From positions 3,593 through 67,592 of the forward strand of contig JAUNTX010000006.1 of assembly GCA_030538475.1 (NCBI GenBank): a DNA stretch of 64,000 bases, written 5' to 3'. The DNA is from Dermabacter sp. GTDB taxonomy: Bacteria; Actinomycetota; Actinomycetes; Actinomycetales; Dermabacteraceae. The notes under the pieces were generated by a model. It had not been told where the DNA came from, did not search any database, and saw only the letters and a program-made list of their open reading frames with translations. The position numbers and the translations under genes are program-made. This document shows positions 46,689 to 48,842 of this stretch, piece by piece (position 1 is the stretch's first letter; each line of letters begins with the position of its first letter).

Positions 46689-48842
46689 ATGGAACCAGAC
46701 GAGCGCGCAGAGGGCCGCGGCGCCACGCCCGCGGGGGAGCAGACACCCTCCTCGGCGCCGGGTGCCGCCCCGCGGCTGCACCGCCCGGGCCGCGTGAACG
46801 CCCACCTGGCCGACGCCCTCGCGGATACCGGCTACCACGTGCAGCGCAAGATCGGCAGTGGCGGCATGGGCATCGTGTACCTCGCCCAGGACGGCGACGG
46901 CAACGACATGGCCCTCAAAATGCTGCGCCCCGAGATCGCCGACGACCCCCGCGCTCGCGCCCGCCTGCGCCGCGAGGTCAAGGCCCTGCAGAAGATGCGC
47001 AGCGACAACATTGCCCGCGTGATCGATGCCGAACTGGATTCGCCCGAAGCATTCGTGGTGACAGAGTTCGTGGCCGGTCCCACCCTCGAAGACGCCGTGC
47101 GCTCCCACGGCCACCTTCACCTCGAGGCCGTGCGGGAAATCGGCGTGGTTCTGGGCGAAACCCTCGAAACCATCCACGACCAGGGCATCGTGCACCGCGA
47201 CCTCAAGCCCAGCAACATCATGCTGCGCCACGCCACGCCCGCCGACCTCACCACGTTCGATCCCGACGCCCAGCGCCTCGATCCCGTCATCATCGACTTC
47301 GGGATCGCCCAGGCCGTCGAGGATTCCCGCCTGACCTCCACCGGCATGATGATGGGCACCGCCGCCTACCTGGACCCCGAAGTGGTCAAGAGCAACGCGG
47401 CCGGTCCCGGAGCGGACTGGTGGGCGTGGGCCGGGCTCATCGCCTTCGCCGCGACGGGCCGCGAACCCTTCGGCAGCGGCCGCGCCGACCTCGTGTTCCT
47501 CCGCGCGGATCGCGGCGACGTAGATGTCGAGGGCCTGCCGAGCGCCCTCCAGCAGTGGCTGCGGGAGGCCCTGAACCCCGATCCGGCTCTTCGCCCCGCA
47601 CCGAGCGACCTCATCGAACGCCTGGCCCGCATGGACCTCGAGTACTTCGGCCCGCTCGCGGGCGTAGGGGCTGGTGCTGCTGCCGCCGGTGGTCAGGCTT
47701 CCGGGGCACAGGGGACCGGGGCCGACGGCGCTGGCGGGACCGCCGTCATCGGCGGGACCGATGCTGCCGAGCCCCGAACCGAGGTGCTGTCCCCGACCGC
47801 CCTGCACGGCTCGGACCAGGCGGGGGGTTCCCGCACCGAGGTGCTGGGCGCTGCCGCGGGCCCGAATACGGAGGTGCTTGGCGGTGCGGCGGGTCCCCGC
47901 ACCGAGGTCCTGGGCGCTGCCACCGGTGCGCACACCGAGGTTCTCCACGAGTATCCGGGGGGCGCGGATGTTCCCGGGGCAACCGAGGCGCTTCCCACCC
48001 ACGGTGAGGGCGTCACGGAGCAGCAGCCGCCCACCGAGGCCCTGCCGCAGATCCGCGAAGAGGTCCCCACCCGGCCCTTCGCCCCCATCCAGGATCCCAT
48101 TGCCCCGAGGGCTTCCGCGCCCCTCATGGGACCGGGTGGCGTCGGCCCCGCGAATTACGGAGCGCCCGCCCAGGGCGCCCTCGTGCCGGGCGGGCCCGCG
48201 ATGCCGCAGGCCCCGTACGTTATGCCGCTGCATCCGCAGGTGCGGCCGCCGAACAAGCGGCCGTTCCTCGTGGGGCTCGGCGCGGCGCTCGTCATCGCCC
48301 TCGGCGCTCTCGCCCCCCTCACCGCCGTCCTCTTCTTCGTGCTGCTGAACGCGTTCGCGCGGGCGTGGCAGCGCAGCTGGGTGGCGCTCACGAAGGCGCG
48401 CGAGCGGGGCGCGGGGGAGCGGATGACTCGGGCGGGCCTTGCCACGATGGCGCTGCCCCGGTTTGCCTGGGGGATCCTCGAATCGGCGCTGCTGGCGCTG
48501 TTCCCCCTCGCGCTCGCTGTCGGCGGGGTGATCGCGGTCGATGCGATCCTCGTATGGCTGCTGCACACCACGCTGCCCCTGGCGGTGTACGGCGCGGCCA
48601 TTACCGCGGTCACGATGGCCCTGTGCTGGATCGGGATTGATTCGCGCACCACGCGCTACGGCGCGCACCGCATCGTGGATGCCGCCGCGCCCGACGCGCT
48701 GTGGACCGCGATCCTCGCCACCCTGCTCCTGGTCCTGCTCGGCGTCATCGGCGTCACCATCGGCGCCCGTGGCGGACTCATCGACTACTTCCCCTACGTC
48801 GGCATGTTCCGCTTCGAGGACATCGCCCCCTGGCGGTCCTAG
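46689..48842 (+). CDS. Membrane Ser/Thr protein kinase with TEVL repeat linker
   Basis: This 717-residue Hanks-type kinase has its catalytic domain at about residues 48-320: glycine loop G-S-G-G-M-G (56-61), Lys77 in A-L-K-M-L, catalytic loop H-R-D-L-K-P-S-N (about 173), metal loop D-F-G-I-A (about 208). The linker (about 335-520) carries five T-E-V-L motifs (Thr364, 383, 394, 405, 416), the last four at an exact 11-residue period, plus T-E-A-L at Thr432 and Thr449. The C-terminal part (about 525-717) has four hydrophobic helices instead of the usual single helix with PASTA domains. The TEVL threonines resemble FHA-type phospho-sites and may be autophosphorylated. No FHA protein is adjacent. 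Confidence 0.88.
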   Translation: MEPDERAEGRGATPAGEQTPSSAPGAAPRLHRPGRVNAHLADALADTGYHVQRKIGSGGMGIVYLAQDGDGNDMALKMLRPEIADDPRARARLRREVKALQKMRSDNIARVIDAELDSPEAFVVTEFVAGPTLEDAVRSHGHLHLEAVREIGVVLGETLETIHDQGIVHRDLKPSNIMLRHATPADLTTFDPDAQRLDPVIIDFGIAQAVEDSRLTSTGMMMGTAAYLDPEVVKSNAAGPGADWWAWAGLIAFAATGREPFGSGRADLVFLRADRGDVDVEGLPSALQQWLREALNPDPALRPAPSDLIERLARMDLEYFGPLAGVGAGAAAAGGQASGAQGTGADGAGGTAVIGGTDAAEPRTEVLSPTALHGSDQAGGSRTEVLGAAAGPNTEVLGGAAGPRTEVLGAATGAHTEVLHEYPGGADVPGATEALPTHGEGVTEQQPPTEALPQIREEVPTRPFAPIQDPIAPRASAPLMGPGGVGPANYGAPAQGALVPGGPAMPQAPYVMPLHPQVRPPNKRPFLVGLGAALVIALGALAPLTAVLFFVLLNAFARAWQRSWVALTKARERGAGERMTRAGLATMALPRFAWGILESALLALFPLALAVGGVIAVDAILVWLLHTTLPLAVYGAAITAVTMALCWIGIDSRTTRYGAHRIVDAAAPDALWTAILATLLLVLLGVIGVTIGARGGLIDYFPYVGMFRFEDIAPWRS
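47775..48047 (+). repeat. Internal repeat in the kinase gene coding the TEVL/TEAL motifs
   Basis: The coding sequence for R/N/H-T-E-V-L-G-A-A-A-G-P units recurs every 33 nt between 47832 and 47940. Looser copies lie at 47775 (T364), 47982 (T432) and 48033 (T449). Confidence 0.75.

Follow-up and report, generated by a model that had tools for sequence, protein, structure and literature searches.

The gene described here lies in a window of 64,000 nucleotides (the whole stretch of Dermabacter sp. DNA that was analysed) and encodes a putative Ser/Thr kinase anchored in the membrane. In its juxtamembrane linker, which is modelled as disordered, phosphothreonine docking motifs probably form a multivalent array for FHA proteins. 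Sequence and structural models together give a kinase domain, a disordered region, a T-x-[AV]-L motif that has been both kept and expanded, and a membrane domain (Table 1). Once phosphorylated, by the kinase itself or by PASTA kinases, the linker threonines would present pT-x-x-L sites to cellular FHA proteins (GarA, FhaA, FhaB or an RDD-FHA protein). These would then be concentrated at the membrane beside the kinase, several copies at once, with the number of motif copies setting the avidity, while the membrane domain would serve to anchor the kinase and perhaps to sense.

That the protein is a Ser/Thr kinase, as the first-pass annotation had it, is borne out by the Pfam match to PF00069 (Pkinase) over residues 49-308 (E = 5.7e-41) and by its intact catalytic residues. 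Among 24 aligned orthologs K77, E96, the HRDLKPSN stretch at 169-176 and the DFG at 203-205 are invariant or nearly so, and T216, T218 and T224 of the activation loop are invariant. AlphaFold, with the 24-row alignment as input, models this domain confidently, and both the predicted fold and the catalytic residues are those of a Hanks-type Ser/Thr kinase. A best match to it is present in all 25 family genomes and all 14 order genomes searched, where orthology of the most distant order-level kinases is assumed from the best match. Three known types of kinase were considered and rejected: a PknB/Stk1 PASTA kinase (163 bits versus a cut-off of 450 for PknB_PASTA_kin, and no PASTA match in Pfam), an AfsK-type kinase (149 bits versus an NCBIfam equivalog cut-off of 1300), and PknG, for which no PknG_TPR match was found anywhere in the genome and in place of whose TPR the C-terminus is a membrane domain.

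This C-terminus had been annotated as a four-helix membrane region. Hydropathy does indeed give four hydrophobic segments; AlphaFold, however, confidently places helices at 525-541, 543-572, 577-625, 631-648, 652-666 and 670-693, of which in this model about five probably lie in the membrane and one at its interface. When modelled alone, the domain reaches a mean pLDDT of 90. It has no Pfam match of its own, the weak Pfam matches among relatives disagree, and comparison with solved structures yields a best E of 1.2 in Foldseek and a best Z of 4.0 in VIA-align, none of them convincing. It should be noted that a missing match does not by itself establish that the fold is new.

Table 1. Features of the kinase gene, its downstream neighbour and a second motif-bearing membrane protein. 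Positions are those of the window unless prefixed otherwise.
Feature	Position	Strand	Basis
Ser/Thr kinase gene, 717 aa, ATG start	46689..48842	+	ORF call; best matches in 25/25 family genomes
Hanks-type kinase domain, residues 49-308	46833..47612	+	PF00069 match, invariant columns, pLDDT mostly 85-97
Linker modelled as disordered, carrying the motif array, residues 327-515	47667..48233	+	pLDDT <50; motif statistics
TEVL, T364	47778..47789	+	sequence
33-bp DNA tandem repeat under the TEVL units, 3.3 copies, 73% matches	47834..47941	+	TRF
TEVL, T383, first of four at 11-residue spacing	47835..47846	+	sequence
TEVL, T394	47868..47879	+	sequence
TEVL, T405	47901..47912	+	sequence
TEVL, T416	47934..47945	+	sequence
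TEAL, T432	47982..47993	+	sequence
TEAL(P), T449, Thr invariant in 24/24 aligned orthologs	48033..48044	+	alignment
TRPF, T461, Thr invariant in 24/24 aligned orthologs	48069..48080	+	alignment; absent from the first-pass annotation
Helical membrane domain, residues 525-693	48261..48767	+	AlphaFold; without Pfam family or convincing solved-structure match
DsbA-like Thioredoxin_4 protein with N-terminal membrane anchor, next gene downstream	48965..49759	+	neighbour conserved
P0002, second membrane protein with motif tail	C6:304729-305670 = L049:3727-4668	-	own-genome pattern scan

The linker between the two domains has a pLDDT below 50 throughout in the AlphaFold model made with the 24-row alignment. 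The motifs that had been claimed in it (five TEVL, four of these at exact 11-residue spacing, and two TEAL) all sit precisely where they were reported, and from T364 to T449 they follow each other at 19, 11, 11, 11, 16 and 17 residues. T449 and T461, both invariant in the ortholog alignment, are the two threonines nearest the membrane. The pattern T[EQ][AV]L occurs seven times in this linker versus 0.03 times in shuffles, with a maximum of two in any of 20,000 shuffles.

Random variation of the repeat among relatives would have spoken against the reading of the first-pass annotation. Instead, the motif is kept and is specific to Thr: T-x-[AVIM]-[LIMF] is present in the linkers of 24 of the 25 family genomes, where its number (1 to 14 per linker) and its spacing (mostly 9-14) vary. 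Over these 24 ortholog linkers the motif was observed 143 times versus 7.6 in shuffles, and the narrower T[EQ][AV]L 67 times versus 0.49, while the reversed motif was found once. It holds 143 of the 356 threonines and only 1 of the 250 serines, for which Fisher's test gives p = 4e-38 if sites are taken as independent, an overstatement because the linker sequences share ancestry. Since the copies occupy many non-matching positions across the ortholog linkers, conservation as read from these alignments is that of a motif, and not position by position. High valency, on the other hand, does not appear to be essential to the kinase, because the linker of one family genome (G006, locus L025) carries no copies though the kinase is present, the three sequenced congeners have only one or two copies each, and order-level relatives have none to two. 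With so few copies in the congeners, the run of TEVL units seems to have expanded recently in this species.

The ligand recognised by FHA domains is pTxx[ILV], with pT required (PMC8786283), and in the pThr sites of M. tuberculosis that depend on PknA, acidic residues precede the Thr and Leu or Val stands at +3 (PMC7164672). All seven TEVL/TEAL motifs carry L at +3, as the T-x-x-[ILV] sequence of an FHA ligand demands, and across the ortholog linkers D/E is enriched at -2 to -4 and L/I/F/M at +3 of the motif Thr. Judged by its residues, the array motif fits both the FHA ligand and the substrate preferences of mycobacterial kinases.

The motif is also found on other proteins. A scan of the own genome for two neighbouring T[EQ][AV]L matched the kinase gene, one other gene and a place at C12:234133, with no match for the backward control. 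The other gene, P0002, codes for a membrane protein for which no Pfam family was found, and in which membrane helices come after a long, acidic cytoplasmic tail that bears TEAL, TEVL, TEVI, TQVL and TEAM; its orthologs in three congeners have a shorter tail, still with TEVL and TEKL. The PASTA kinases of the family have the motif in their juxtamembrane linker, again on Thr (43 of 189) far more than on Ser (2 of 159). Outside the family, pairs of T[EQ][AV]LP were located on tails of other membrane proteins that read as cytoplasmic, and such pairs are present in 11 of 198 order genomes. Membrane proteins at four loci in other families of the order (L158, L174, L166, L168) have tandem tails of TQALP/TEALP/TEVLP, and the carriers of such tails include a VanW-like protein (by reading) and small two-helix proteins. 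The serine version of the pattern, used as a control, gave 19 scattered matches in 47 genomes, with none in the own genome and none at kinase loci. Several family-wide matches read as chance matches in globular enzymes or as 8-bp intergenic repeats; tandem arrays of the latter type, such as ACTGAGGC (G011, G018, G059, G008), are false positives of the motif pattern. A tentative extension, which we regard as possible but rather doubtful, is that T-x-[AV]-L forms a pThr docking code of general use in bacteria: in these actinobacteria, copies on disordered cytoplasmic tails would be carried by several kinases and by membrane proteins that are otherwise unrelated, FHA proteins would be gathered into kinase-controlled membrane clusters with a strength set by motif number, and the present kinase would be the hub of these clusters.

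Could the linker threonines simply be kinase substrate sites without a reader, (auto)phosphorylation of which alters charge and membrane or catalytic behaviour, an effect that has been proposed for the juxtamembrane segments of other bacterial kinases? The motif alone does resemble a kinase consensus, acidic upstream and hydrophobic at +3, and in StkP seven phosphorylated juxtamembrane threonines matter for division (PMC12077195). However, a charge switch would need neither a strict T over S (143 to 1) nor closely kept positions +1 to +4, and although the T bias could in part reflect a kinase that prefers Thr to Ser, we consider this explanation unlikely. Another is that T-x-[AV]-L-P is a short linear motif bound in unphosphorylated form by another cytoplasmic domain. 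Pro is common at +4 (94 of 143 motifs), a residue that to our knowledge FHA recognition does not require, and the occurrence on tails of other membrane proteins would suit such a motif as well. That Ser hardly ever replaces Thr, though, is the signature expected of pThr readers, and the motif occurs on kinases themselves, which makes binding of the unphosphorylated form quite improbable in our estimate.

As for the origin of the array, the four 11-spaced units were made by duplication, judging from the 33-bp DNA tandem. Among the five TEVL cores 18 of 40 codon comparisons differ, and every difference is synonymous. Within the four 11-spaced units, differences between TEVL codons are synonymous in 13 cases and change the amino acid in none, whereas in the spacers 8 are synonymous and 27 change it. 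Synonymous-only divergence of TEVL therefore points to purifying selection after duplication, and this codon pattern indicates that the TEVL repeats are not neutral and that the motif is the part that was kept. Neutral tandem-repeat expansion in a low-complexity linker, in favour of which stand the DNA tandem itself and a repeat number that differs between species, was rejected as highly improbable, contradicted as it is by the synonymous pattern of the TEVL cores, by recurrence of the motif at other spacings in other genera, and by the invariance of T449 and T461.

Returning to an array read by FHA proteins, the genome encodes three clear candidates for the reader (FhaA-, FhaB- and GarA-like) and has two weaker FHA places. 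Co-occurrence of FHA proteins with the array does not discriminate, because FHA genes are near-universal in these genomes. GarA, of which the usual kinase is PknG, is present in all 25 family genomes, while PknG_TPR is found above the curated cut-off in none of them. As GarA is kept without PknG found in the family, the array could help answer which kinase serves GarA. The GarA N-terminal motif is TTSVF in Rv1827, a preferred PknB target sequence (PMC6151718), and all 23 family members in which it could be read have T-[ST]-x-[L/F/I]; the search pattern already required a hydrophobic +3, yet the position is constant. Like the array, the GarA/OdhI motif is of the form T-x-x-[L/F], with a hydrophobic residue at +3 after the Thr. 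It differs in being a single copy to which the FHA domain of the same protein binds in cis, and in having S/T at +1 and K/T at +2, where the array has E/Q and A/V. By sequence, then, the array shares with the GarA motif only the Thr and the hydrophobic +3, which counts against our reading. In the region C3:237-240 kb (L034 and L035), a membrane protein that is RDD-like by reading has a C-terminal FHA domain with DQTVLTPAF just before it, near a large FHA protein that is EssC/FtsK-like by reading.

The first-pass annotation considered such a phospho-scaffold not described before, which is only partly right. In PknG, also a Ser/Thr kinase and known from Mycobacterium and Corynebacterium, several Thr in a disordered N-terminal segment are autophosphorylated and anchor the FHA protein GarA/OdhI (PMC8546545), as is predicted here. 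PknG differs in its TPR and often rubredoxin domains, in having its sites N-terminal to the kinase, the present array being placed after the kinase domain and before the membrane domain, and in that no regular tandem motif has been described for it. The ABC transporter Rv1747, which through its FHA domains and disordered linker condenses in a kinase-dependent manner (PMC9312465), likewise combines FHA modules with disorder and shows kinase-dependent clustering at the membrane. There, however, FHA domains and linker are part of one polypeptide, whereas here the linker is on the kinase and the FHA domains would come from other proteins. Because of these two precedents, the principle of the array is not new. 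PknB/Stk1 PASTA kinases share the order of kinase, juxtamembrane linker with T-x-[AV]-L motifs, and membrane anchor; the present kinase has no PASTA domains, a multi-helix membrane domain and, in most orthologs, a longer array.

Bacterial FHA signalling has usually been studied one phosphosite at a time. With a short Thr-specific motif whose copies have multiplied and been rearranged in the linker of one kinase across a family, and which recurs on further kinases and membrane proteins, FHA clients in actinobacteria could be predicted from sequence, and the range of 1 to 14 copies constitutes a natural series in which the avidity of a bacterial phospho-scaffold could be tested.

The surroundings of the gene may offer a lead, and a lead only, to its role: the DsbA-like gene adjoins the kinase in 7 of 7 family loci and in 2 of the 3 order loci tested, which may point to the envelope or to redox. 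The opposite strand upstream of the kinase encodes a copper-type P-ATPase and a protein with a metal-binding domain, both by reading.
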